A stretch of DNA of 64,000 bases, taken from contig CM053327.1 of NCBI GenBank assembly GCA_028583605.1, forward strand, positions 27,329,629-27,393,628. The letters are read 5' to 3'. Numbering within the stretch: the first letter of the stretch is position 1; each line of letters begins with the position of its first letter. The notes beneath the pieces are model-generated. The model was not told the DNA's origin, did not search any database, and saw nothing but the letters and a program-made list of their open reading frames with translations. The translations under genes and the position numbers were made by a program. The DNA comes from Dastarcus helophoroides (taxonomy: Eukaryota > Arthropoda > Insecta > Coleoptera > Bothrideridae). Below are positions 5,548 to 63,151 of the stretch, one piece after another.

Positions 5548-6070
5548 TTTTTGGTGGAACGGACTGATCCTTGGTTATCTTCAAAAATTGAAATGCAAAT
5601 CTTCTCCCCTGAAACCAAGAAAGATAAAAAAACACAACAAAGGTTGTCTTAACGCGTTTCGATAGCCAAGCTATCATCTTCAGAACGATACATCTATATC
5701 TCTATCTCTATGAAATCAAGAAAGATTAAAAAATACAACAAAGGTTGGTCTAACGCGTTTTGACAGCAAAGTTATCATCTTCAGAGAGATACATCTATCT
5801 CTCTATCTCCCTGAAGATGATAGCTTGGCTATCGAAACGCGTTAGAACAACCTTTGTTGTGTTTTTTAATATTTTTTGGTTTCAGATTAAAACAAACAAC
5901 AAAGGTTGCTCTAAAGCGTTTCGACAGCCAAGCTATCATCTTTGAAGAGATACATCTATCTCTCTAACTCTCTGAAGATGATAGCTTCGTTATCGAAATG
6001 CGTTAGAGCGACTTTTGTTGTGTTTTTTAATATTTCTTGGTTGCAGGAAACAAGATTTGAATTTCAATAA
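5548..6070. repeat. Family A composite copy 5
   Basis: Several arms in alternating orientation lie between TGCGTGG at 5541-5547 and TGCGTGG at 6071-6077, a possible 7-bp duplication. The left terminus GGTGGAACGGACTG is present. Three central palindromes contain CTGAAGATGATAGC. Confidence 0.7.
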
Positions 6071-6429: not shown

Positions 6430-9400
6430 GTACGTACCATTAGTGGTCATCTCTTCACGGATGTGTACTTTTTTAATCATCATCAGGGAGAAATGGTTAC
6501 GAAACAGTGAGCCTTATCAGATTTTGTTTTACGATGTTAGCGTGTGCGGTTTTCAGTCTTTTTTTCCATTTAAATTGTGTAATTGGTCATTTTATTTGTA
6601 CATATGTATAAGTGGATTCAACAGTTAATAACTACATAATACAACTAATATTGTATGAACCTCTGCGAGGATAGTAGTTTAGTTTTTATTTCTTTGATTG
6701 TGTGGAGGAAGCTTACTCTAAAGCTAAAATATAGGAGCGTAGTTTATATATTTTTTCAATAAATCGTGCCAGCGTATCTTATATTTTTTTACAAATACTG
6801 TCGAAATATAATTTTTTATTACAAAGGGCATAGAAACGTCCAACTGTTATTTAGAAAATTTGTAATTTTTTATATCATAAGTCAGGAGTTCTCGAGTTTA
6901 CACCATAAGTTTATAGAAAACAGTCGAAATGCAATGATTGAAATTTTAAAAAGTGAAAAATTACAAAAGGAGAAATTTTGTATTAACAATTAAAAAATTT
7001 TATGCAAAAAAACAATCGAAACTTGAAATTCGGAATTTGGACAAAAAAAGGTAAAACTTTGGAGAAAGGGAACCGAAAAATATTTAAAATTTTGTTATTA
7101 GAACGTAACGCGTTTTTATAAAGTACAGACGAACTTTCTTTTTGGTGGAACTGACGGGTCCTTGGTTATCTTCAAAAACTGAAATACAAATCTTGTCCCC
7201 TGAAACCTAGAAAGATTAAAAAACACAACAAAGGTTGCTCTAACGCGTTTCGATAGCCAAGCTCTTATTTTCAGAGAGAGATACGTGATAGAGATGACAG
7301 CTTGGCTATTGAAACGCGTTAGAGCAACATTTGTTGTGTTTCTTAATCTTTCTTGGTTTCAAAAAAAAAAGAAATACAAATCTTCTCTTCTGAAACCAAG
7401 AAAAATTAAAAAACACAACAAAGGTTGCTCTAACGCGTTTCGATAGCCAAGCTATCATCTTCAGAGATATACTGATCTTTCTGAAGATGATAGCTTGGTT
7501 ATAAAAACGCATTAGAGCAACCTCTGTTGTGTTTTTTAATCTTCCTTGGTTTCAGGGGACAAGATTTGTATTTCATATTTTACAGACGAACTTATTTAAT
7601 CATTTTAATATTTTGTCCCATCAAAATCTTTTGCAATTAATTTCACATATATAGATTTTATGCACAAAAAATTGTAACAAAGTGGGAAATTACGTTTAAA
7701 AAATTTGAATCTATATTTCCGAAGAGAAAATTAATGAAATTTTGTTGAACATAGTAAGATGTGAATTTTTTACGTTATTTTAACTTGATGCACAAATACT
7801 TAATTTGGCGATTTCTCAAAAATGTGCTGGTCAAAGATTGAGCACCCTTAAGGCGATTTTTATCTGTTACCAATAATTTTATTCACTGATAGAGTTCCTA
7901 CCTCAATCAAAAATAGACCCGTGGTCCTCTTTTGGCTACGAGTTGCGTTCTGCAAAACTATTCCATTGCATCATCTCAGAAGTAAAATTTGGGCCAGTTT
8001 GTGCAAAGTAAATTGACTTTGTATTAACGTTATTGATTTTGTGACTTTAATTTCTTAAAATTGGTTTTCATTATTGAAATTGTTTCCTAGTTTTGTTTTA
8101 TTTGGTATGTTGAACTGTAATCTTCTAAATATTAGAATATTTTTGTCATTTTCTCTTATTCATTTTTGCTACTATTCGCTATATATGCTGCTATATTATT
8201 ATTTAATTAAAAATTTAAAATAACATAAAGCTTAGAAATCCTGACAGTCCAAGGACTTGTTCTCTTACTTCTATTCATCTGCAATCCAGTGCAGTTATTG
8301 CTAGTGGATTGAATATGGTGAAAGGACATCATAAATGATGATCCATTAAATGACTATACCTTTTTTAAACAAGACAACCTTGTGAGTGCGTTTACAAGAT
8401 TCATGTAAGACTTCTAGTTAGGGTTACTGGTCGCTACTATCAAATCAAACGCACTGATGTGAATGCTTTTTTTAATTTTTAATAATACAAACCATAGTAT
8501 ATAGTTAGTGTACAGTGTATAGTATAGTATAGTGTATTTGTTATTGACATTGAGTTTGTCATTTTTTTGTCTTGACAGGTTTCCTTGGAAAATTTTTTTT
8601 TAATTTTAAAACCCTTTTTTCATACCGTTGCTGCAACAATAAGCATTCATTGAATCTTAGTTTTTTAGCAGATTGACGCCACATGTCAAATCATTATTAA
8701 ACCCTCGAATACACCCAACTAAGACGCCAGAAAGTAGCCCACACATCATCTTACATAAGAATTAGGGATGCAACATCGCTCATAAAATCATGGATGGCTT
8801 ATGTGCAGGTCCAATTTTAGGCAACTTACCATGAATCCAGAATTCAGAAAATCATTGATTGTTTTTAATTATTTTTTAACTTTGAAAGTTAATTAAAAAC
8901 AATTGAAGAAGATTTGAGTTTTTGACATTGGTTTTGATGCTTTAACAGAATTTTTATTTCTCTTGCAATTCTACACTCTTTTTGGAAGTTTTGAATTTTA
9001 GACAAAAATACTAGCTACTTGACTACCTTGAAATGTTGGTTTTGAATCTTAAAAACTTCCATCTTTGGTAAAAATTTGATTTTTCTTGAAATTTAAACAT
9101 TCATTTTCAAATTTGGACGACTTTTTTCGCAATGTTTCTAATTTTGCCTGAACTTGATAATTTGACAATTATTTTTGATTCATTTTAATCAATATTTTGT
9201 TTTATTTTGAATTAAAAATATTTATACTTATGTGGAATAGACTGGTCCTTGATTATCTTCAAAAATTGAAATACAAATCTTGTCCCCTGAAACCAAGAAA
9301 GATTAAAAAACACAACAAAGGTTACTCTAACGCGTTTCGATAGCCAAGCTATCATCTTCAGAGAGATACATCTATTTCTCTATCTCTCTGAAAATGACAG

Positions 9401-12400
9401 CTTCGCTATCGAAACGCGTTAGAGCAACCTTTGTTGTGTTCTTGAATCTTCCTTGGTTTCAGGGGATAAGATTTGTATTTCAAAATTTCAACTTATTCTT
9501 AGCGAAAATTTCTGTTGGTTTTTTCTCAAAATATTAGCTCCAGTCTGGAAATCGTTCACTTTATTCTTTTTTTCTAACTGCATTTTTTATTTTTGTTAAA
9601 ATTTGAAGTTTTTTGATCTTCATCAAAATATTTAAACATTTGTTTTTTTTGCATAATAAGCTCTTAAACATTTGGTTTTAAGAGAAACATTTTTGTCGAA
9701 AATCGAAAATTTCTGGAAAAACTTTCAAAATTGAATATCAAAATTCACAGTTTAAGATTTGTGGCAACATTCGTCAATATTTTGAGCTTGTAAACCAGAG
9801 TGTAAAAAAAAACAAAACAAGTAAACATTTCATTAAAAAATCAAGCAAAATAAAAATTTTGTTTCTGTCAAGGTTTCTCATTTTTGTGAATATTATTTTT
9901 ATCTCAAAAATACACGAAAATGTTTGAAATTTTAACAGAAATTTTAACTTTAATATTCAATTTTTGACTAAACTTTTACTTATTTCAACTTTTTTTTAAT
10001 TTTGACTTTGAATCGGGCAAATTTTCGATTTAAGTGTTAAAAACTTGTCAACAATTGTTAAAAAATTGTTGACAATTTTTGATCTACCAGTTCTTTGGAG
10101 TGTTATCCGGATTTCGACCTAGACTTTTCTAGATTTGTCTACAATTTTGTCTTATTTTTTTGAAATTTTGCCTTTTTATCCTATGATTGTGATATTTCTC
10201 CAAAAGTCTATGACTTTTGACTCAAATGTTGACCCTTTCAGGATATTTTGCCTTTTTTAATTATCTGATTTTTCAGCAAACACAATTTAAAAAAAATTAA
10301 TTACAAGTAATTTGAATTTTTATATAAACACATTTTTTTTAAATTCACTACGAGAAATTTGAGTTTTTCTGCAAATGTTGACTTTTTGAGATGAATTTAA
10401 ATTTTTTTGAAATATTTTGATTTATCCTTATAAAGTTATCTTGCAATCTGGAAGTTTTTTAATAAAAAGGCTTTTTTCCACGTTGTGCATATACAAACTA
10501 CTTTTAATAACAAATTTTTAGCAAAAACTGGAATTTTATTGTTATAAATTTTAAACTTCTCTCGAAATATGAGAGAAGTTTCGAAATTTTATTTATCAAG
10601 ATATGAAGCTTAAAAATTTATGAATTTTTTTTATATTAATTCGAAAATTGAAGTACAAATCTTATCCCTTAAAACCAAGAAAGATTAAAAAACACAACAA
10701 AGGTTCCTCTAACGCGTTTCGACAGCCAAGCTATCATCTTCACAGACATACTGCCTCTAGAGCAACCTTTGTATGTGTTTTTTAATCTCTCTTGGTTCAG
10801 GGGACAAGATTTGTATTTCCAAAATTATATTAATTCGAAATTTTTAAAATTTTGAAAAAGAAGTTTGAGTTTTGGTGGAACGAACTGGTTCTTGGTTATC
10901 TTCAAAAATTGAAATACAAATATTGTCCCCTGAAACTAAGAACGGGTTGGTTTCAGGGGACAAGGTTTGCATTTCAATTTTTTTAAGGATTTTTAAAATT
11001 TCAAGGTGAATCTCAAAATATTGCCTTGCGTAACCAAATTGTTTGGCGTGATTTCAACATTTTATGACTTCTAGAAATTCTAAGTTTCAAGAGAAACCTC
11101 GCAACCTCGAATTTAAAAAGCTAACTTCGACAAAAGTTTGAATATCCCAGTTTAACATTAAAAATTTGAAACTGGTGTCAATAAGTTGAGTGAGAATTTT
11201 AGGAATTTCTTTTATATTTAATTAGAAATGTTGAATTTCTTCTTAAAATAAGTTGAATGCAATTTTCAATATTTTTTTTTAACTTGCATTCAAAACTCGT
11301 AATCTAAAAATGTCAAAACCTCATCCAAACAAATTTGATTCTTTTCTCGAAAATTCAAATTTCAACCAGAAATTTTTAATTTCATTTCGGAATTTCGAAT
11401 TTTATCAAATTTAAAAATAATTTTGTACACAACATTTTTCGCGAAATTTGATCTCAAAATTAGGTTAATTAATTTTTAAATTGGAGAATATTTTCGTTAT
11501 AAACCTTGAATTTTTTTCTCGAAATTTCGACATTTTTCTGAAACCTGATGACTCCAAATTGAAATTTATTCTCTTTTCTATAATTACGAGTTCGAGTTTC
11601 AAGTTTTTCCAAAAACCTTTTTTTCAAAAATTTGTACTTCCTGTCATTTTCAAAATGTCCATACGGGACCTCCTTATCTTGGCCACATTTATATAAGTTT
11701 AACTTGGGAATTACGAAGGCTTAGAACGGGCATCAAATTACATTTTTTGGCGGAACGGACTGGTCCTTGGTTATTTTTAAAAATTGAAATACAAATCTTA
11801 TCCCCTAAAACCAACAAAGATTAAAAGACATTAAAGCAACCTGTACTGAAGTTTTTTGATTTATTTTATTCTAGTTTTGCCAAAACTCAAACCGAAGCTT
11901 ATCTAGACCTTTTAAAATTTACATTATACTCAGAGCTTCCATTGCAACTCAAAAATATAAAAAGAGAGAGCGCCTTGTATCCGCTTTTTTCTAAATTCTC
12001 TTAATAGTTACAGAACCAAATGAGGAAATCCAAAGAAGTAAATACTAAATCGTAATTTTGTTTTTAAACTTGAACTTGAAGATTATTAAGTTCAAACTTT
12101 AAACCAAAAAAAAAAAGTTGTATTTTAAGCTAGAGCCACATCAATAAAAATTTGCGTTGTACCCTGAATTTGTCACAAAAATCTTGGTTTTTGGGCCGTA
12201 TTTGAGGTGTTTAGAACATTATTGAGTTTAAACTTTAAACGACAAAAAAAAGTTGTACTTTAAGCTATATCCACATCAATAAAAATTTGCGTTGTGCCCT
12301 GAATTTGTCACAAAAAGCTCGGTTTTTTGGCTGTATTTGAGGTGTTCAGGATCATCGTCAATAAAAATTTGCGTTGTGCCTTGAATTTGTCACAAAAAGT

Positions 12401-18400: not shown

Positions 18401-21400
18401 AATTTAAATGTGCAATTTCGAAATGTTTTCTAAAAGTTTTATTACTTATCAAAAAGTGTCGTATGCTAATAGAATACAACCCAGACTACAGTAGACAACC
18501 CTCTAAGCGTATATATTGAATTGTGGGTATCTGAACTACCAAAAGTTGAAACACACATGCCTAGCAAAATGGTTGCTCTCTAGGAAAACCCCCTAATTTT
18601 AAGCTCGATACTTGAGGATATCTTTGAAATTTAGAGATCAAAGTCAAATGAAGAAAACAAAGACTTCATTTCAGAAAGAGTACAAATATTGAATTTTGGT
18701 AGAGTATTGTAATGCACAGACCAATAGGTTTTAACATTTATCAGATTCTCAATTGGATATACCAAACTGACGAGATCTAATAAGATCGAAACCGGTCTTT
18801 GGTTTCCAAACTCTGAATCTGATAAATATTCAAACCTATTGGTCTGTGCATTAAAATACTCTACAGAAATTCAATATTTATACTCTTTCTGAAATGAAGT
18901 CTTTGTTTTCTTAATTTGACTTTGGTTCCTAAATTTCGAGGATATCCTCAAGTATCGAGCTTAAAATTGGCCTTAAAAAAATAAAAATTGCTAATTTGGG
19001 CCCCAAATCGTGTTTAAACCGAAAATGTAAATGAAAAAAATCTGTTTTGTTGCCCAAATCTTTTCAAATTCTATCCAAAGCCGAAATTTTGGGATTAAAA
19101 AAAATTTTGAAAAATTTTCATCACTGAAGACTTACAGCTTGTTTTTAGAAGTTCCAACTGACTCTAAATTATCCGTTTTCCAAAAAACTCGTACTCTTTC
19201 TCTCTAAATTTGAACTCCATTTGCAATTACGGATTAAAACGTAGAATTCAAAAATAAACTTGACATTTATGTGTAAAAATGGTTGAATTTTTACTGTAAA
19301 TTTGAACTTAAATTCAAATATACTCGAAGTACCCTCAAATAAAAATTTAAGAAAAAAATTTTTTGAGAACATTTTTATTAATTTAGTTCTCAAATTCATG
19401 ATTATTACTTGGAAATTCCGAAAGAGGTTTTTATTTTTTTTTAACTTCGTTAATTTCAAATTTTCGAAATTTATACGTTTTTCCCCGATTTATGAACATT
19501 ATAAATTGATGTTATAATCCGAGTTAATTCAAAAATTTCGACTCTAATCTTGAATTTTGTACTTCCACTTTCAATGGTTTCAAGTTTGAAATCAAAAGAT
19601 CATATTTTGTACTTTTGAGTCAATTTTTTAAATACATTTTGTGTGTTTCACGAAAATTCGACCCTTTCCAATCTTTTTATTCAAAATGAAACTTGAGCTG
19701 TCCATTTTAAATCAAAAATTACGAAAATCTGTAGAAAAAGTTGGGATTTTAGTGTTTTTTTTTGAACCTTTTATTTTAATCTTTAGATTTAAATTTTCTC
19801 GAAATCGCGAATTTCAAGTCTTAAGAGAGTGATTAAAATTTTTACTTATCTTCTGAAAATTTCAACTTTGGATTTCTAATTTCGATAATCACCTAAAAAT
19901 TTAGGTTTTTTTTGATATTCATTAATAGATGTTCTATTTTTTACATATTTGTTTGATAGTTAATGTATCTATTTATTAGTAACATGGTTGAGGATTTGGA
20001 AGACCTTTTATTTTAAATAAAAACTAAAGAAAAATTGAACAAAAAAAATTGATAGTTGGATCGATGAAAACCCCAACATGAGGCATTTTGTGCAAAAGTG
20101 GCCCACGTAAACTCATGTAATTACAGTGAAAAATTACAGTGAAAATCAACAAAGAAAATTCTAATTTGTAATACATAAAGCAAATATGAAATATTGCTGC
20201 CATCTGCTAAGTAGTAAAAGCATTGAACATGAGTTTGCATTGCACTGTCAACGGTTGCACTTACAGATATCAATGTTCTGAGTAAAATAAACTGAAAATC
20301 AGGAAATATTTAAATATGTTGGTTAGGCCACTTTTGCACTAAAAGCCTCAAATGTTGACTTTTTCTTCATTTCAACTTCAAACGCGGAAAAGATTTCATT
20401 TCAAATTTCGAGTTTAGAGTCGAAATTTTCAAACTAATCCGAAACGTGGATATTAAAGGCCAAATTCTAGGAAAATAAGTTAAAATTTCCACTTAAACAT
20501 CAAATATTTTGTCAAAATTTTGAGTATGCAAGTAGAATACAACCTAAACTGCAAATTCATGCAGCCCTCCAGGCATGTATAGTGAATCATAGGTAGCTGA
20601 ACTATCTACAGTTGAAACACTGCCACCTAGCAAAGCGTTGCTCTTTAGAAAAGTTCCCAGAAGACAAGGATTGTAGTGCACAGACCAATAGGTTTGAACA
20701 TTTATTAGATTCGAAGTTTGGTTAGTTAGTTAGTTAGTTATTTAGTAGTTAGTTTGGTTTTCAAACTTCGAATCTAATAAATGTTTAAACCTATTGGTCT
20801 GTGCATTAGAAAATTTTGAGATTAAAATTTAAGAAAAGCTCAACATTTTCACAAAATTTTTGAAGTTTAACTAATTTAATTTTTTTTAACTTGGGCTTTA
20901 ATATCCAAATTTTGGATTAATTTGAAAATTTCGACCTTAAAGTCGAAATTTGAAATGAAATATTTTCCACATTTTAACTGAAAATGAAGGAAAAGATCAA
21001 CAATTTGGGATTTTCATTGATACGACCTCAATTTTTTCTGTTCAATTTGTCGTTAGTTTTTTATTGATAATCGAAAATCTTCCGAATCTTTAACCATTTC
21101 ACTGATAGATAGATTAAAAATTAAATAAAAATAATAGAAAATAGTACATAACCTTAATGAATATTAAAAAAAAAACAAATCTTAATGTAATTTTCAAAAG
21201 GCTGCAACTCGGAAAAAAATGGCCAAAGAGAAAAATAAAAATAAGTAAATTAAAGCCCCAACTTTCTAGTTTTTAAATATTGAGTTCTCAATCGTTTACC
21301 ATTAGAAGTGATTCATTAATTGTAAGAAAACCATCGTCCCACCATTTTTCCAAATGTTTGCTTAAATTTAAAAATATCCACAGACTTTAATAATTTTTTT

Positions 21401-27400: not shown

Positions 27401-30400
27401 GAAGATAACCAAGGACTAGTATGTTGCACAAAAAAAAAGAAAATTTTGGAAAAAAAATCGACATTTTGAGAAAAAGTCAAAATTTACAAAAAAAAAGTGC
27501 AAATTTCCTAGAGAAGATCAAATAAAAAAAATCCTGTATGAATAAGGAGAATTTTTAAAATACATCATTTATGGAGAAATATCATTTTAAAAAAGAGAAA
27601 AGTGGCAACATTTCTAAAGAACGAATTTTGAAAAGAAATGAATTCGAAATTTTCAGGAAGAAAGACAATGTTAATCAGAGAACGTATCATTTTGAAAACA
27701 AATAAAAATAACCAACAAAAAAGACGAATTTTGAGAAAAAAATAATTCTTTTTCTTGACAAGAGGAATTACGGAAAAGAATTTGAAATTTGAAGAAACTT
27801 GAAAGGTTAAATTTCGAGATAAAAATCGTTTCGGAAAAAAACCAAATTTTGAGGAACATGTTCAGAATTACAGATTTTAAACAGAAAGGATTTCAAAAGA
27901 GTCTAGTTTTCAGGAGGTAGAAGAAAATGTCCAAAACAGATGAATTTTTAAAGTAAAATCCAAATTTCGAGAGAAAAATCAAAATTTGGTGAAAAAATCA
28001 AAATTCAAAAAAAGAAAACGCCGAAATTTTCTAATAAAGCAGAATTTCGACAAAAAAAGACGAGTTTCGAAAAGAAAATCCAATCCAAAAAGTTCAAATT
28101 TGGGGAGAAGTCGAAATTTGTTAAGAAAAGTCGAATCTCGAAAAAAAATCGAACCTAAAAGTGGAATTTTGATTACAAAGTGAAAATCAGGGAAAGACGA
28201 AGTTTGAAATAGAAGCGAAATAGAAGCGAAATTTCTAGAAAAAAATCCTTTTTACTGTAATTTTGGTGAAACGGACTGGTCCTTGGTTATCTTCAAAAAT
28301 TGAAATACAAATCTTGTACCCTGAAGTAAAGAAAGATTAAAAAACACAACAAAGGTCGCTCTAACGCGTTTCGATAGCCAAGCCATCATCTTCAGCGAGA
28401 TACTCGCGGTAGAGCAACCTTTGTTGTGTTTTTTAAAGTAAGGTGCTTGAGCCTTGCACCCCTCCTCTGCCTCATGCAATGAAAAGTAATATTATTCAGT
28501 AAACAGCATTGAAATACAAATCTTATCCCCTGAAACCAAGAAAGATTAAAAAACACAACAAAGGTTCCTCTAACGCATTTCGATAGCCAAGCTATCATCT
28601 TCAGCGAAATACTCGCATTAGAGCAACCTTTGTTTTGTTTTTTAACCTTTCTTAGTTTCAGGGAATAAGGTTTGTATTTCAATCCTGTTTACTGAATAAG
28701 ATTACTTTTCATTGCATGAGGCAGAGGAGGGGTGCAAGGCTCAAGCATCCTACTTTTCCGCGCCATGCCTATGTCTGGAAACAGCAATTCATCCTTTTTA
28801 AGTAATCTTGAAATGATAGTTTAAATTTTGAAAACAAGTCGAAATTATAAGTAAAAAGTTAAAATTTTGCGAAAAAAGTCGGCATTACCAACATAAAGTA
28901 AAATTTTGAGAAAAAAGTGAAATTTTTGGGATTAAAATGTAAATTATGAATGAGATTAATTTAAAATTTTAGAAAAGGCCAATTTAAAAAAATAAGAAAT
29001 TTTGGTAAATCTGACGAAATGTCTAAAGGGCGATTTTTCAGAAAATAAACTTTGAATTCTTCAGAAAAAGACTGAACCTAAAAAAGGGACGATTTTTAAA
29101 AAAAAGGTATCAAAAACTCTACTCAGTAATACATTTTCCATTTTGCTAGATGACCTTTCTGACAATTTTACGGTTCCAGGCTTCTGCCACGTATTGAAAA
29201 AATATGAACCAAATGCAATTTCAGATCATCATCTTTAGAAATAGTTTGGCCATTCAAAGAGTTTTGTAAATTTGGAAATAAGTGTGGTGGCGTAAGATTG
29301 GGTATCTAAGATGAATGTGACGACCAGAGACTAATGACACTTTTAAATCGACCTCCAATAATTTTTTCTTCTTTTTACGTGCCACCTTCACGATGAAAGT
29401 TGGCAATCATCATTGCGATACGGATCTTCGAAGTTGCATTCCGGAATAACTGATTGGAGCTGCATCTGAACCACTCTCTGAGGTTTCTCAGCCATGACAT
29501 CCTCCGTCTGTCGGTGCTCCATTTACCCTGAATCTTCCCCTGCATGATCAATTGTAGCAGTTGGTATTTATCTGCACGCAAAACTTGGCCTAGATACTGC
29601 AACTTCCTCGTTTCACTGTATCAATCCTTTCCTTTTCCTTGCCCATTCTTCAAAGCACCTGATCGTTGCTGACCTTATCGTTCCATGAGATCCTCAAGAT
29701 ACGTCGATGCGCTCACATCTGGAATGCCTCCAGCTTATTTATTGATTTCTTATTTTTTATTTGAGGTCCACGTCTTCACCCCAAATTTTTACTTGTTATC
29801 AAAAATGTGTGGTCTCGTTCTCGTGTTGTGATGTGTGGCTGATAGTGTAAAATTGGAGATCAAAGATTAATAGGACAAAACTTTCCAATTAAAGTCCAAT
29901 AATTTTTTACTTGTTACTAAAAATTTGGTTGTCTTATGGAAAATTTTGCTTGATGACTTCCATCGATAATTTATTAATAGTACACATTTGAATTGAGCAC
30001 CTGGTTCGTTGGGAACAGGGCAAAAGGCGCAACACATTTAAATTAATCTGGTTAACAGGATAATCGTTTTTGTTTTTGCAAAAAATGGTAATCTGATGGT
30101 GTAAGATCAGGGATGGATGTGACACTTCCCAAACAAACTTCAGTAATTTTCGACGCGTTACCGAAGATAAGTGTGGTCTCGTATTGTAATGGTAGTACAT
30201 GGTTGCCATATACTTTATAAATACTGAAAGCTTTTGCTTGATGGCCTCATCATCATCATCAAAAATTGAAATACAAAGCTTGTCCCCTGAAACCAGGAAA
30301 GATTAAAAAACACAACAAAGGAGCAACCTTTGTTGTGTTTTTTAATATTCTTTGGTTTCAGGGGACAAGATTTATATTTCAATGTTTAAAGATAACCAAG

Positions 30401-33400
30401 GACCAGTCTGTTCCACCAAAATTATGATCATTATCATCAATCAGCTGTTTTCGTCCACTGCTGATTATAAGTCTCCCGTAGTAAATTCCATACCCTCCTG
30501 TCCTGAACTGCGTTCATCCTGTTGGAATGTTGTCCGACCATCAGATTGGTGGTATTCCTTTGCTGCAGAATGCATCGGCTCGCGGGCTCCACTTTGTCAC
30601 GTTTTTCGTCCATCTCTCCTCATGGAACCTGGCTAGGTGTCCTGCTCAGTTCTATTTAAGAGTAGTAATCTTCTCGATGACGTCGATTACTTTAGTTCTT
30701 TCCCTTATATTGGTGTTAGGAACTCTATCTCTTAGAGATAGACCTAGCATTGCTCTCTCCATAGCTCTTTGTGCAACTCTGATTTAATTCGCAGTCCGTC
30801 TTGTTAGGGTTAAAGTTTCGGCGCCATATGTCAGCACAGGTATAATACACTGGTTAAAAACTTGCCATTTAAGGCAGATGGGGATATCTGATTTTAAAAT
30901 ATGGCTTAACTCTTCGAAGGCTGCTTATGTCAGTCCGATCCTTCTTGCCAATTCACAGGTTTAGTTGTCTCTACCCAAGCGAATCGCATGGCTCAGATAC
31001 TTAGATGAGTGAACTTGTTCTATTTTTGAGTTGTGAGAGTTAAGCAAGTACTATCAACCAGATTAATCATGAATATAGTTTTGTTGATGTTAATACTCAG
31101 ACCCAGTTTCTCGGAAACTTGTTCTAGCTCCTGTAACATCGTTTGCGCTTTATCAAGACATTCTCTAACCTATATTATGTCGTCACCGAATCGCAGATGG
31201 TTTAGTTTTTCGCCGTTAATGTTGATCCCAAGGTTTTTCATGTTATCTCTTTTGAACATATATTCTAGTAGGATTGTAAACATCCTGGGGGAAACAATAT
31301 ATCTCTGTCGCACACCTCTTTCTATCGTGAAGTTTGGAGTGTCTTCATGCAGCCTGATGAAAGTAGTTGCATTTTTGTACACTTGCCTAACGATGTCTGT
31401 GTAACGATGGTCAATTCTGCAGTCAGCCATAGCCTTGAACATTACACTGTGGTCGATCGTGTCAAAGGCCTTTTCGTAGTCGATGAAGAGAAGAACTAAA
31501 GGTTTGTTATATTCCACACATTTTTTGATGAGGATCTTGGTTGAATGAGGGTGGTCATTAACGCCGGCACAGAATCCGCCCTGCTCCCGTGGTTGGTAGA
31601 AATCTAGCTTCGCTGTCAGCCTTTTAGTTATGATACTCAAGAACAAATTTAAACAACTGTAAGAGTAGGTTGATAGGTCGATAGTTTTGGATCTTTGCTA
31701 TAGGGCTCACCCTAGTTTAACTAATTTTAAATTGAACCTATTTCAACTGTCCTATCTGGTTTGTTGGAGGTAAATCAAAATGTACAATAGATTTATAATT
31801 CATCTGGATAACAGGACAATAGTTTTTTGTTCTTTGAAATAAATTGTAATCTGATGATGTAAGGTGAGGGGTATATGGTGGATTTGACAACACTTCTCCA
31901 CCAAGCTCCACTTTTCACGTGTTTACCAAGAATGTGTGTGATTGTAATCTTGTGACTACAAAAATTTTTGCCTGATGACTTCCTCCGATTCAATCAATTA
32001 ACTGAATTGATCGTCTGATTCGTCGGAAATAGGTTGAAATACCTAATTTATCAGGTTAACAGGAACATCGTTTTTTGGTGAAATTTAAATTATGTTACGA
32101 TTTGTCTTAATTGAACAAGCATGAACTGTAATCATTTTAATGGTAATGGAAAGTAGCCAACATTTCAAATTGTGCTGTACATTTAACCAATCAATTCGAG
32201 CACTCTGATGACTTTGATTGTTGTTCTTCATCAACTTCATTTGGTCCACCACACGTTGATCGTCTTTGAATCAGAAATCTTCAGAATGGAATTTTGCAAA
32301 ACAATTCTCAAACGTGGTGTTGGTTGCCAAAACGAGCACTAACCAACACCATCTATTACCGGTTCTTCACTCTCGCCGAAGGTTTTGTCGAGACATTTAA
32401 CAGGACAAATTTAACTGCGAAGGCTAATCTACCCTCTCCCTCGCACTCTCGGTTATCGTGCTCGTTTCCTTTGACTCACATCTAAAAACCGACTCGACAC
32501 GGAGCACTTCCGAGGCGAACGGAGACAAAGCGAGTCAAAACCAACGTAGCTTCCACATTCTCGCGCTCGAGTTCCACCGTATCATCTCGACGATGAGTGA
32601 AGAGCTGGCATATCAAGAATGAAAGTTCTTTTTGAGACTTGAAGATGCCGCTTCAACGTGGCGGGAAAATTATTTGAATTTGAATAAGTATCATCAACGA
32701 GTAAACTTGTGGGCCATTAAATTCCACAGTTTGGAACGAGTTGCCGGTAATCGTATCTTTGGCAGTTTTCAGAGCATTGACACTTTCCTCTTTCCTTGGC
32801 TTTAAGTCCAATTACTAGTTTTAATTGAACATTTGGCTGTTTATCCCCTAGGTGATTCTCAAGGCGACCAAGTCGATTACCTTTCTCTCGTTAATTCGAT
32901 TACATACTTGCCACTGATGATGCCTTGCAGACGTCAAGGTGTTTTTAGAAATGATGATTAAAAAATTATTAAAAAAACACGATTTCTGAGCCAAATGCAT
33001 TACCCATTCAAATTTTTGTAATAATAGAAAATAGTGAGATTGAATTTAATAAAGATTCTGACAGTATTACACTAATATTTGCGTGTAGAGCATATTTCTT
33101 ATACCAGGGATTTCTATGAATGCTTGTCCTTCTTAACAACAAGATGAAGATGTAGATTTTCAAAATCACTTATAAATACTTAATGTAAGTAATTGTCAAT
33201 ACCTCTACATTTATTACAGATATCTCAAGATGTAGTCAAATTAGTTCCTTTACCATTTAAGTAATTTTTACGCTTTCTCCTCATCAGCAGGAAGATGTAA
33301 GAACATTTTTTCTTTGACACATGTTGAATCAAATTCGAGAAAGTACAAAAAGCAATTTGTCTAATACATATTTGTTAACAAAAAGTTTGAAATCTGTATT

Positions 33401-52532: not shown

Positions 52533-52870
52533 ATACTTAAAAGAGACTTTTTTCTTGATTTCGTATTGTCAGGAGTTCTTAAACTTCTTTTTTATAAACG
52601 TTAGTTGAATATCCTAATCCTAAAAAAACGAAAATAGTGCAAAAACAAAATGGTAAACGAATGCAAAAAGTGACAGTTTTTCTTACATCTTTCAAATTCA
52701 AATTACACATACCAAATTTTACAAGTAAATGCAAACTAGGTTTGGTATATCCGACTCGAATGCTAACAAATGTTCCGACAAGTACTAAAGAATTCACGGA
52801 CGTCAAGCGTGTGACTTCTCAGTATTACCGCCACCTATTGGTCCATAGAGAAACACTATGGCCAGGTTGC
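52533..52870. other. Intergenic after Gasp, nothing recognised
   Basis: Non-repetitive AT-rich DNA. The overlapping frames on both strands here (52579-52885) are not supported. Confidence 0.35.
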
Positions 52871-53026
52871 ATTCTATCTGGCTAGGTTGCATTCTACTTG
52901 CATACGACATTGTTGGCGATGGCCATTCAAGGGGGGTATACCAAACTGACGAGATCTAACAAGATCGAAACCGGTATTTGGTTTCCAAACTTCAAATCTA
53001 ATAAATGTTCAAACCTATTGGTCTTG
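52871..53026. repeat. Family C copies abutting head to head
   Basis: GGTTGCATTCTACTTGCATA (ending 52904) is the family C start on the minus strand. From 52935 a + strand family C inner part runs through the hammerhead and CCAAACTTCAAATC to CTATTGGTCTTG. The far end is interrupted by the hAT-like element and may resume at GATACCAAATT after 55600. Confidence 0.65.
52940..52982 (+). ncRNA. Type-I hammerhead ribozyme motif, second copy
   Basis: ACCAAA (52940-52945) with TTTGGT (52977-52982) is helix I. CTGACGA is at 52946-52952. GATCT/AGATC (52953-52957 and 52962-52966) closes an AACA loop. GAAA is at 52967-52970, then CCGG (52971-52974). The triplet is GUA here (cut after 52976), still an allowed NUH. 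The difference from the first copy affects only the loop and the cleavage base, so the core is conserved between copies. Confidence 0.82.
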
Positions 53027-60779: not shown

Positions 60780-61328
60780 GAAGTGGACTTAGATATCCAC
60801 CCTGACGCTCAATCACTACCTGAAGAAAAATATAAATTATCCATCTGGCTTATAGATGGGTCAAAGACAGCACATGGGAGTGGGAATGTATGGCCCTAAC
60901 TATAGGTTCTCTAAAGCGTTGGGAAAAGACCGAACTGTCTTTCAAACTGAAATACATGCAATAGAACTCTGCGCCTATGAGTGCCTTCGAAGAAACCTGA
61001 AAGTAACAAAGACCTACATTAACTCTTGCAGCCAAAGGGCAATAAAGGCTCTCAGCAGCTGCATTGTCAAACGCAAACTAGTTTAGGACTGTCATCTGCC
61101 AACTGGCTAAACACAACAGGATTAAACTTAAGTGGGTGCCAGGGCACAAAGGAATATAATGGAATGAAGCTGCGGACCAACTCGCTAGAGAAGGATCTGC
61201 ACCGTCATTTCTTGAACCTGAACCGGCTTTTGGTTTTTCTAAAAGTCAAATCAACAATGAGGAGAAAAAATAGGAAACAAAGTCAAGAATTTTCCACTGG
61301 AGATTATATCCAAGACTACGACCGGCGA
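60780..61328 (+). pseudogene. RNase H domain of the older LINE (first part)
   Basis: LIDGSKTAHGSG carries the first Asp, TVFQTEIHAIELCAYEC the Glu, and YINSCSQRAIKAL the third motif, in which the usual Asp is lost. WVPGHKGI and NEAADQLAREGSA form the last motif with the conserved His and Asp. Frames shift several times. The end is interrupted at 61328 by the younger LINE. Confidence 0.75.
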
Positions 61329-63151
61329 GTAAGGGATGTCCGCAAGGGGGTGTATTATCCCCCCTTATATGGTTAATCATAGCGGATGACCTTATCCGAA
61401 AACTCAATGATCGGCATCTCTATACAATTGGCTACGCAGATGATATAACCATTCTGCTTTCAGGTAAACACGAGGGAGTACTCTTCGAGTTAATGCAAGA
61501 CGCCTTATATATAGTCGAGAAATGGTGCAAAGAACATTCCCTAGCAGCAAATCCTGCAAAGACGGAAATGGTCCTTTTCACAAATAAAAGGAAATTAGCG
61601 CGACTAAAATTTCCCAAACTCATGGGAACCCAACTCGGATTGTCAAATCGAGTGAAATACCTTGGTATTGAACTTGACAGCAAACTGAGCTGGAAGTACC
61701 ACATTGAAAATAAATTAAACAAAGCTTACAAGATCTTCTGGCAATGCCGTGGGGCCATCGGGAGGTCTTGGGAGTTATCCCCTAAGATGACCTTTTGGCT
61801 ATACACGGCAGTCATCAGACCAATTGTAAGCTACGGAGTTATAGTTTGGTGGCCAAAGACAAAGTGCACCACTATAAAACAAAAGCTAAATCACATCCAG
61901 AGACTAGCGTGTCTGGCAGTGATAGGAGCAATGAAATCCACTCCAACAGCAGCAATGGAGGCGATCTTGTGCCTGCCACCTCTCGACATATTTCTTGAGG
62001 GGGCGGCACAGGCTTCTGCTCTCTGTTTGCAAGCAGGAGGAATGTGGAATACGGTAGGTAAAATGGTGGGTCACCGGCGCATAATGGAGGAGGCGCTCCA
62101 AAAGGTACCTATTCTGGATGCACCGATGGACCATCTACTGGTGAAATATAACTTCACAAAATCCTACCGTATAAAAATGGAGGAAGTACAAGCAAAGATA
62201 CCAGACGTAAGTATATACACGGATGGATCGAAAACAAATACGGGCACTGGAACAGGAATCTTCTCGGAAGACCTGAACCTAAGTGTAAGTATTAAGCTAG
62301 ATAAATACTGAACAATCTTTCAAGCGGAGATGTTGGGAATTTTATATAGCGCCGAACAAATGACGCAACTGAACATTACAGGAAAATATATCCAAATAAA
62401 GACGGACAGCCAGGCAGCCCTTAAGGCCCTGAGGAATGTGAAAACAAACTCAGTGCTGGTATGGAATTGCCACCTAGCTCTAGAACGTCTATCACAAGAG
62501 AATGCAATTGATCTAATATGGATCAAAGGACATTCTGGGAAAGAGGGAAACGAACGCGCTGACAAACTGGTGAGGAAGGGTTCGGAGGGACAATTCGTTG
62601 GACCAGAACCAACCCTTCTCCTTGCAAGATCAACCGTAAGATCCCTACTTAACGAAGAAACTTATCGTAAACACAAAACCTTATGGGCATCAATAACAAC
62701 ATGCCGACAAACTCACGCATTCATTAGAATGCCGTGCAGGGAAAGGGCAAAACTATGCCTACAACTCTCAAGGAATAATCTCAGGAAACTTGTAGGGATA
62801 TGGACAGGTCACTGTCGATTAATCAAACACCTCCACAGAATGGGAATCATAAACGACCCGAGCTGCAGAGGGTGCTTAGAAGAAGATGAGAGTGTCGAGC
62901 ACGTGATGTGTCACTGCCCGGCACTAGCATCAATCAGAGGATCCACGCTGGGGGACTTCTGGCCTAGTGTGGCCCGTTTGAGAGAGGCGCATCCAAGGGA
63001 CGTTCCTCAATTTCTCAACAAGGTTGGGTGGCTGAATGAATGACCAAGGACACCTCAATCACGGGGATAGCACAATAGGTCCGGAAAGGGTGGCCTAAGT
63101 GCTGGCCTAAATTTTAGGCAACCCACAACGAATCCAGAATCCAGAATCCAG
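61329..63151 (+). mobile_element. Younger LINE nested in the older one, 11-bp target-site duplication
   Basis: ACGACCGGCGA (61318-61328) and ACGACCAGCGA (63152-63162) flank the insert with one mismatch. The insert starts inside the RT domain (5' truncation) and ends with exactly three AATCCAG heptamers (63131-63151). It belongs to the same family as the short copies at 15176-15527 and 38119-38424. Confidence 0.9.
61331..63043 (+). pseudogene. RT - RNase H - zinc-knuckle ORF of the younger LINE, one internal stop
   Basis: A single frame runs from 61331 to the TGA at 63041-63043 with one interrupting TGA (62309-62311) and no frameshift. It carries GCPQGGVLSPLIW, GYADDITILLSGK (the YADD catalytic box), a KYLGIELDSKLSW thumb-like region, and the RNase H motifs YTDGSK, FQAEMLGI, KTDSQAALKAL and GHSGKEGNERADK. 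It ends with the C-terminal CRGCLEEDESVEHVMCHC knuckle. The RNase H and knuckle are typical of I/R1-like LINE lineages. The N-terminal half (gag, endonuclease, first RT motifs) is absent through truncation. Confidence 0.88.

Follow-up and report, generated by a model that had tools for sequence, protein, structure and literature searches.

A 376-nucleotide non-coding retrozyme with a hammerhead motif in the beetle Dastarcus helophoroides, likely mobilised by Penelope-type machinery

A 64,000-nucleotide stretch of contig CM053327.1 of the beetle Dastarcus helophoroides (assembly GCA_028583605.1; here called the window, numbered from its first base) contains a repeat in which an earlier note, made from the sequence alone, recognized a complete type I hammerhead ribozyme motif. 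This raises the question of what kind of element the repeat is, and which enzyme spreads it. Our analyses showed that it is one of many dispersed copies of a mobile element about 376 bases long that has no coding capacity. We interpret this element as a non-autonomous retrozyme with an intact hammerhead motif that is likely mobilised by a Penelope-type reverse transcriptase (RT)-endonuclease, a reading to which we assign a probability of roughly 0.68. Penelope elements are the likely copyists because the insertions of the retrozyme carry the end pattern typical of Penelope.

The hammerhead can be read directly in the letters. All invariant bases of the type I fold (CUGANGA, GAAA and U-H17), together with helix II and an open helix I, are present at positions 18761-18803 of the plus strand (Table 1). 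A scan that required the core, a helix II of at least 4 bp, a helix I of 5 bp and the 15.2-16.2 pair identified two complete motifs in the window, with cores at 18767 and 52946 (both on the plus strand), whereas 150 dinucleotide-preserving shuffles yielded no such motif; the claim of a complete core within a repeat was therefore confirmed. The cut is predicted 3' of C18797, which is position 17 of the GUC site. Searches of the whole window against Rfam gave no match at the gathering level. With relaxed thresholds the HH9 model (RF02275) aligned over 18749-18820 at 35.1 bits, against a cut-off of 52 (E 3.6e-7 for 550 bases), and the sole gap in the alignment was the absent 5-nt loop of helix III. 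A covariance-model hit, which the earlier note had proposed as a check, was thus obtained at relaxed thresholds but not at the gathering level. The E-value alone is no proof, because the AT-rich palindrome at this site also draws a spurious microRNA model (E 1.9e-4). As the score lies below the cut-off, we describe the site as a hammerhead motif by its core and not as an Rfam member.

To define the family, the 539-Mb assembly (50 contigs) was searched with two queries. The first was palindromic, which favours head-to-head copies near the hammerhead, and the second was one tandem unit; they gave 2885 and 3874 first-look candidates, respectively, and in each case the best 40 were scored and yielded 30 loci, so the copy number of the family is known only at the level of first-look candidates. 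The first 40 matches listed for the unit query each covered at least 436 of the 456 query letters. Of the first 30 loci, four (L016, L019, L021 and L025) carried intact hammerheads in direct tandem, spaced 376-378 bp apart; exceptional spacings of 490 and 681 were seen in L021 and L017, respectively. Unlike these, the window copy at 18761-18803 is not in tandem. A real 376-nt unit from L021 served as the reference, with u1 as the base right after the predicted cut. Its GC content is 41%, and the longest open stretch across three tandem units is 72 aa. Folded as a circle, the unit reached -113.7 kcal/mol (z -4.4 versus 60 shuffles) with 66% of its bases paired. The stretches u1-35 and u310-345 repeat one another in inverted orientation.

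The family therefore has the features by which retrozymes are recognized: one type I hammerhead per tandem unit of 150-450 bp, a lack of coding capacity, a GC content below 50% and, as described below, target-site duplications (TSDs) of more than 4 bp. The accessible portions of the published accounts describe metazoan retrozymes of the type without long terminal repeats (LTRs) in the same terms, as small, tandem, non-coding and self-paired (PMC7229834), and specify a type I hammerhead, short tandem units of about 170-400 nt, GC below 50%, TSDs above 4 bp and strongly self-paired unit RNA (PMC7229834; PMC7761336). The family differs from them, as far as those portions go, in its one-pair helix III and in a head-to-head, two-ended structure that they do not describe.

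This structure became apparent when the insertion ends were mapped in 54 loci and the window. Six loci that repeated other places (L001, L002, L031, L032, L042 and L045), overlapping alignment pieces and clusters shorter than 80 bp were filtered out before counting, and 62 of the 64 mapped insertions were kept, two at locus edges being removed. The outward 3' ends (n=103) fell largely into two classes 148 nt apart: A, at u48-72 (around u60), with 50 ends, and B, at u196-220 (around u208), with 38. Together these account for 88 of the 103, and 15 lay elsewhere. The outer 5' ends (n=21) were scattered from u78 to u334. Forty-one insertions were head-to-head, 21 had a 3' end on one side and a 5' end on the other, and none was tail-to-tail; the head-to-head share was 25/36 for the first query plus the window and 16/26 for the unit query. 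Both ends could be classed in 27 of the 41 head-to-head insertions, and 24 of these were A/B, three A/A and none B/B. When ends were shuffled among the 27, the mean number of A/B pairs was 13.6, and 24 was reached in 0 of 20,000 shuffles. For the first query plus the window alone, A/B pairs numbered 15/16 (reached by 13 of 20,000 shuffles).

The insertions were also flanked by short duplications, scored as a shared flanking word of at least 8 nt with up to 4 element bases counted on each side. Such words occurred in 14/24 A/B insertions compared with 16/1385 mismatched pairings, in 17/41 of all head-to-head insertions (6/2383), and in 3/21 one-sided insertions (1/1191). A clean A/B example is the second insertion in the window, which is flanked by an 8-bp duplication, AATTTTGA, at 20516-20523 and 20812-20819. 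The flanks of the 27 head-to-head insertions with both ends classed were 75% AT, compared with 68% for the loci overall.

Palindromic arms of 154 bp that are 92% complementary surround the window motif, and with duplications of about 8 bp they might suggest a foldback DNA transposon or miniature inverted-repeat transposable element (MITE) with a chance resemblance to a hammerhead in its loop. The unit alignment resolved the palindrome into a head-to-head retrozyme pair plus about 110 inverted bases from outside the unit, and among the matches listed none elsewhere extends more than 15 bases into these outer arms. In addition, the two ends differ in unit position in 24 of the 27 insertions with both ends classed, the 5' ends are variable and multi-unit tandem arrays exist. 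We consider a MITE or foldback origin very improbable and dropped it because the ends are asymmetric. A plain hammerhead satellite spread via unequal crossing-over would explain the near-constant length of the tandem units, but the arrays are short and dispersed, with fixed ends and TSDs, and we regard this origin as scarcely credible.

The ends resemble those of Penelope-like elements (PLEs), for which the accessible text describes pseudo-LTRs inverted head-to-head, one of the two bearing a 31-bp tail, and duplications of 8-10 bp (PMC3846280). The Penelope enzyme of a lizard cuts and extends both target strands, and the tail corresponds to the span that separates two RT start sites (PMC11167929). 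Shared with the retrozyme, so far as these sources describe them, are head-to-head copies, TSDs of about 8-10 bp, a one-sided tail and hammerheads (PMC3846280; PMC11167929); the retrozyme differs in its lack of an open reading frame (ORF), in an A-B stretch of about 148 nt compared with a tail of about 30-40 bp, and in its end sequences. It has the Penelope-like architecture of head-to-head copies, short TSDs and two alternative 3' ends, and lacks an ORF with RT and GIY-YIG domains. We therefore describe it as a PLE-like insertion but not as an autonomous PLE, as no ORF exceeds 72 aa.

Candidate sources of the enzyme are present in this genome. A search for GIY-YIG frames gave 1070 first-look candidates, and at least 91 matches among the best 150 that were scored; in L091 one open frame unites RT and GIY-YIG. 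In L084, a GIY-YIG frame lies between head-to-head copies of a repeat from a second Penelope-related family, which we named PLE2, and for this reason we refer to the repeat as a pseudo-LTR. In the window, PLE2 pseudo-LTRs formed 27 clusters, 20 head-to-head and none tail-to-tail, and the 16 head-to-head clusters with both ends classed comprised 12 A2/B2, three A2/A2 and one B2/B2. Shared flanking words of at least 8 nt were present in 5/27, versus 1.1% of mismatched pairings. Taken with the tandem units, the insertion ends and the TSDs, the PLE2 pattern upholds the association of the repeat with retrozymes and Penelope elements that the earlier note had drawn, and the fixed A/B ends are genomic evidence for Penelope-type machinery in retrozyme spread.

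Several further observations concern the Penelope relatives themselves. Both L084 and L086 contain PLE2 elements with GIY-YIG frames between or beside pseudo-LTRs. The PLE2 clusters of the window (1980-55143; e.g., 5811-5868, 9304-9361 and 28547-28604) carry another hammerhead-like repeat that is more common, CTGAAGA-T-GATAGC-TTG-GCTATC-GAAA-CGCG-TT-AGAG, in which the palindrome ACGCGT serves as helix III; one stretch of it tested against Rfam gave no hammerhead match. We also considered whether the retrozyme might be the pseudo-LTR of PLE1, and rejected this since L025 holds both as separate insertions. The PLE1 frame had no match among PDB sequences.

Twin priming by a long interspersed nuclear element (LINE) also yields head-to-head inversions with target duplications, and LINE-type RT fragments are present in the window. 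A retrozyme moved by a LINE, with the inverted structures as twin-priming products, should have one fixed and one variable outer end, but here both lie at fixed unit positions. No poly-A or simple-repeat 3' tail was obvious among 59 insertion ends, and PLE2 has the same two-ended pattern. We judge mobilisation by a LINE to be quite unlikely.

The nature of the template was addressed through sites that vary among copies. Position 17, which read 61 A, 48 C, 3 T and 2 G in the 114 copies used for letter divergence (a set in which one copy is counted twice, as L001 and as the window), was compared within the 39 insertions that have at least two hammerheads (97 of 118 copies). It was identical in 68/85 within-insertion pairs (shuffle mean 0.46; reached in 0/2000) and in 21/28 pairs on opposite strands of one insertion. 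Site u319 agreed in 54/58 pairs (2/2000 shuffles), agreement at the loop II variable site was weak (75/84; 55/2000 shuffles), and a fourth variable site gave no signal (59/62; 516/2000 shuffles). Mean identity was 95.4% on the same strand within an insertion, 93.8% between its strands, which hardly exceeds the background, and 93.5% between insertions. These data indicate that the units of one insertion were copied mostly from one RNA sequence. Because arrays cross the cut site for more than one unit, this RNA was circular or an uncut multimer, and the data fit both alike.

The outer 5' ends bear on the same point. None of the 21 lies within 10 nt of u1, and there is therefore no sign of cleaved linear monomers as template. 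RT run-off at the hammerhead cut, suggested by a cluster of inner ends near u1, was rejected: the inverted copies u1-35 and u310-345 make alignments overlap there, so that we base no claim on the inner ends, and the outer 5' ends form no cluster at u1. Six of the 21 outer 5' ends lie close to site B (u191-215; in L017, L022, L030, L040, L041 and L058), and inspection of these boundaries yielded no explanation.

The earlier note had taken CCGG as a minimal helix III; this requires correction, as CCGG forms no hairpin alone and within a single molecule only the adjoining A-U pair could close, with CCGG then the tetraloop. A duplex of ACCGGU between two strands was computed at -8.3 kcal/mol. The fold of 18750-18815, another proposed check, proved stable (-16.6 kcal/mol, z -3.4), but its minimum-energy structure, in which CUG of the core pairs with CGGU, differs from the active fold, which without helix III reaches -11.0 kcal/mol. 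Dimer cleavage, with two hammerheads paired via ACCGGU, is the mode predicted by these models, and it is made more plausible by the mispaired core of the single-copy fold and by the palindromic nature of ACCGGU.

This arrangement has published counterparts, described here from the accessible portions of the sources. A group of axolotl hammerheads has a helix III of one pair under a palindromic tetraloop, and dimer cleavage has been reported for amphibian hammerheads (PMC7229834) and suggested for those of Penelope (PMC7761336). Newt and axolotl hammerheads, in tandem units of 330-350 bp, share the one-pair helix III and palindromic tetraloop and show little activity as a single motif but are active as dimers, an activity that is predicted here; they differ in unit sequence and host, and two-ended head-to-head insertions are not described for them in those portions (PMC7229834). 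The pDo500 satellite of Dolichopoda cave crickets is likewise an insect tandem hammerhead repeat for which trans-cleavage has been suggested; it differs in being a satellite of about 500 bp, with no retrotransposition signature described in the accessible text (PMC2837043).

An unlikely rival is that the hammerhead is a relic whose self-cleavage is idle today, and that the RNA is copied from read-through multimers that stay uncut. Copies that cross the cleavage site uninterrupted, the absence of a 5' end pile-up there and the mispaired monomer fold are consistent with it. So is the conservation pattern, in which differing letters amounted to 3.3% in the core, 3.4% in helix II, 2.2% in helix I, 5.5% in the CCGG letters, 7.9% in loop II and 3.8% in the flanks. 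The core conservation that the earlier note had anticipated held insofar as 85/114 copies retain all core bases, and failed insofar as letters vary almost as much in the core as in the flanks; this is as expected of recent copies in neutral decay, and copy conservation alone is no proof of function. Against a relic, the core is retained together with position 17, helix II and no fewer than 5/6 helix I pairs in 67/114 copies (56/114 with ACCGGT too), and 91/114 retain ACCGGT. Hammerhead rules exclude only G at position 17, and although this is the most variable hammerhead site, G occurs there in just two copies.

Several results weigh against a Penelope-mobilised retrozyme with a working hammerhead. 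Core divergence is barely below that of the flanks, the CCGG letters differ more (5.5%) than the flanks, and the 5' ends show no pile-up at the cut. Hammerhead cleavage was dispensable for insertion of Penelope RNA in vitro, with hammerhead mutants leaving insertion unaffected (PMC11167929), which also favours a relic. In the unit-query loci alone, A/B pairing (9/11) was not significant (1100 of 20,000 shuffles), and 14/41 head-to-head insertions have an unclassed end. No similarity to the unit was found in 30 GIY-YIG loci (of the 91 matches), nor did any Penelope element turn up whose ends resembled A and B, the PLE2 ends examined being different in sequence. In the lizard, Penelope RT start sites are alike on both strands (PMC11167929), and for this reason the strict rule of A opposite B is not in itself explained. 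Finally, the window pair at 18703-18860 has A at both sides and a further B-ended piece on its left. Its arms need a secondary event, for which later copying between arms is our guess; this event is not required for the conclusion at the family level.

We propose that tandem copies of the retrozyme would first be transcribed, and that a pair of hammerheads, whether within one multimer or on separate molecules, would form helix III via ACCGGU and cut after position 17, as predicted above. Monomers would then be circularised, or uncut multimers persist, by analogy with published retrozymes. Judging from the ends, a Penelope-type enzyme would cut the target strands about 8 bp apart and copy the same RNA on each cut strand from the fixed sites A and B, and both 5'-truncated cDNAs would be joined head-to-head. 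Tentatively, and at somewhat less than even odds, we extend this to animal retrozymes in general as satellites of Penelope elements, in which both cut strands are loaded on one circular or multimeric retrozyme RNA at fixed sites 148 nt apart, rolling cDNAs from A and B meet head-to-head, and ACCGGU dimerisation serves cleavage and may join RNAs.

The features of the window are collected in Table 1. The window copy at 18452-18968 runs, in order, minus u218-u79, a 114-base arm, the head-to-head pair (minus u63-u18, then plus u312-hammerhead-u63) and finally the second arm in inverted orientation. Its plus and minus pieces share 16 bases (18733-18748), because the sides of the hammerhead form an imperfect inverted repeat. 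Placement in a Gasp intron, as the earlier note had it, was not borne out: three CBM_14 frames lie on the same strand at least 21.7 kb downstream, and the analysis included no search for an exon upstream. Non-LTR retrotransposons have left traces at 61274-63043 and 31170-31697, in the form of frames for RT plus RNase H and a separate RT frame.

Table 1. Coordinates of the hammerhead, retrozyme and comparison features in the window.
Feature	Position	Strand	Basis or remark
Hammerhead, ACCAAA	18761-18766	+	letters
Hammerhead, CTGACGA	18767-18773	+	letters
Hammerhead, GATCT	18774-18778	+	letters
Hammerhead, loop AATA	18779-18782	+	letters
Hammerhead, AGATC	18783-18787	+	letters
Hammerhead, GAAA	18788-18791	+	letters
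Hammerhead, CCGG	18792-18795	+	letters
Hammerhead, T	18796	+	letters
Hammerhead, C (position 17)	18797	+	letters
Hammerhead, TTTGGT	18798-18803	+	letters
CCGGT	18792-18796	+	with A18791 the palindrome ACCGGT; helix III between two molecules predicted
Second complete hammerhead motif	52940-52982	+	GUA site; motif scan
Retrozyme piece, u312 via hammerhead to u63 (3' end A)	18733-18860	+	unit alignment
Retrozyme piece, u63 to u18, head-to-head with plus piece	18703-18748	-	unit alignment
Retrozyme piece, u218 to u79, 3' end B outside	18452-18588	-	unit alignment
Left arm, non-retrozyme, inverted copy of right arm	18589-18702		100/114 positions alike versus 18861-18974
Right arm, non-retrozyme sequence	18861-18968		inverted-repeat comparison
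Second retrozyme insertion, head-to-head, B left / A right	20524-20811		hammerhead core absent
Third, rearranged retrozyme insertion	52740-53024		unit alignment
PLE2 pseudo-LTR pair, head-to-head, B2 (tail) left / A2 right	9228-9495		example of comparison family

The accessible portions of earlier studies do not settle what mobilises animal retrozymes; they name PLEs or LINEs as candidates, and PLEs as strong ones (PMC7229834; PMC7761336; PMC11722881). No report of an A/B end pattern in retrozymes was found in the accessible parts of the open-licence literature searched, though it may nonetheless have been published. The presence in an insect of a helix III of the amphibian type, one pair with a palindromic tetraloop, widens the range in which dimer hammerheads may be expected. 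A Penelope tail signature at retrozyme ends makes the question of the mobiliser testable in any genome that has retrozymes.
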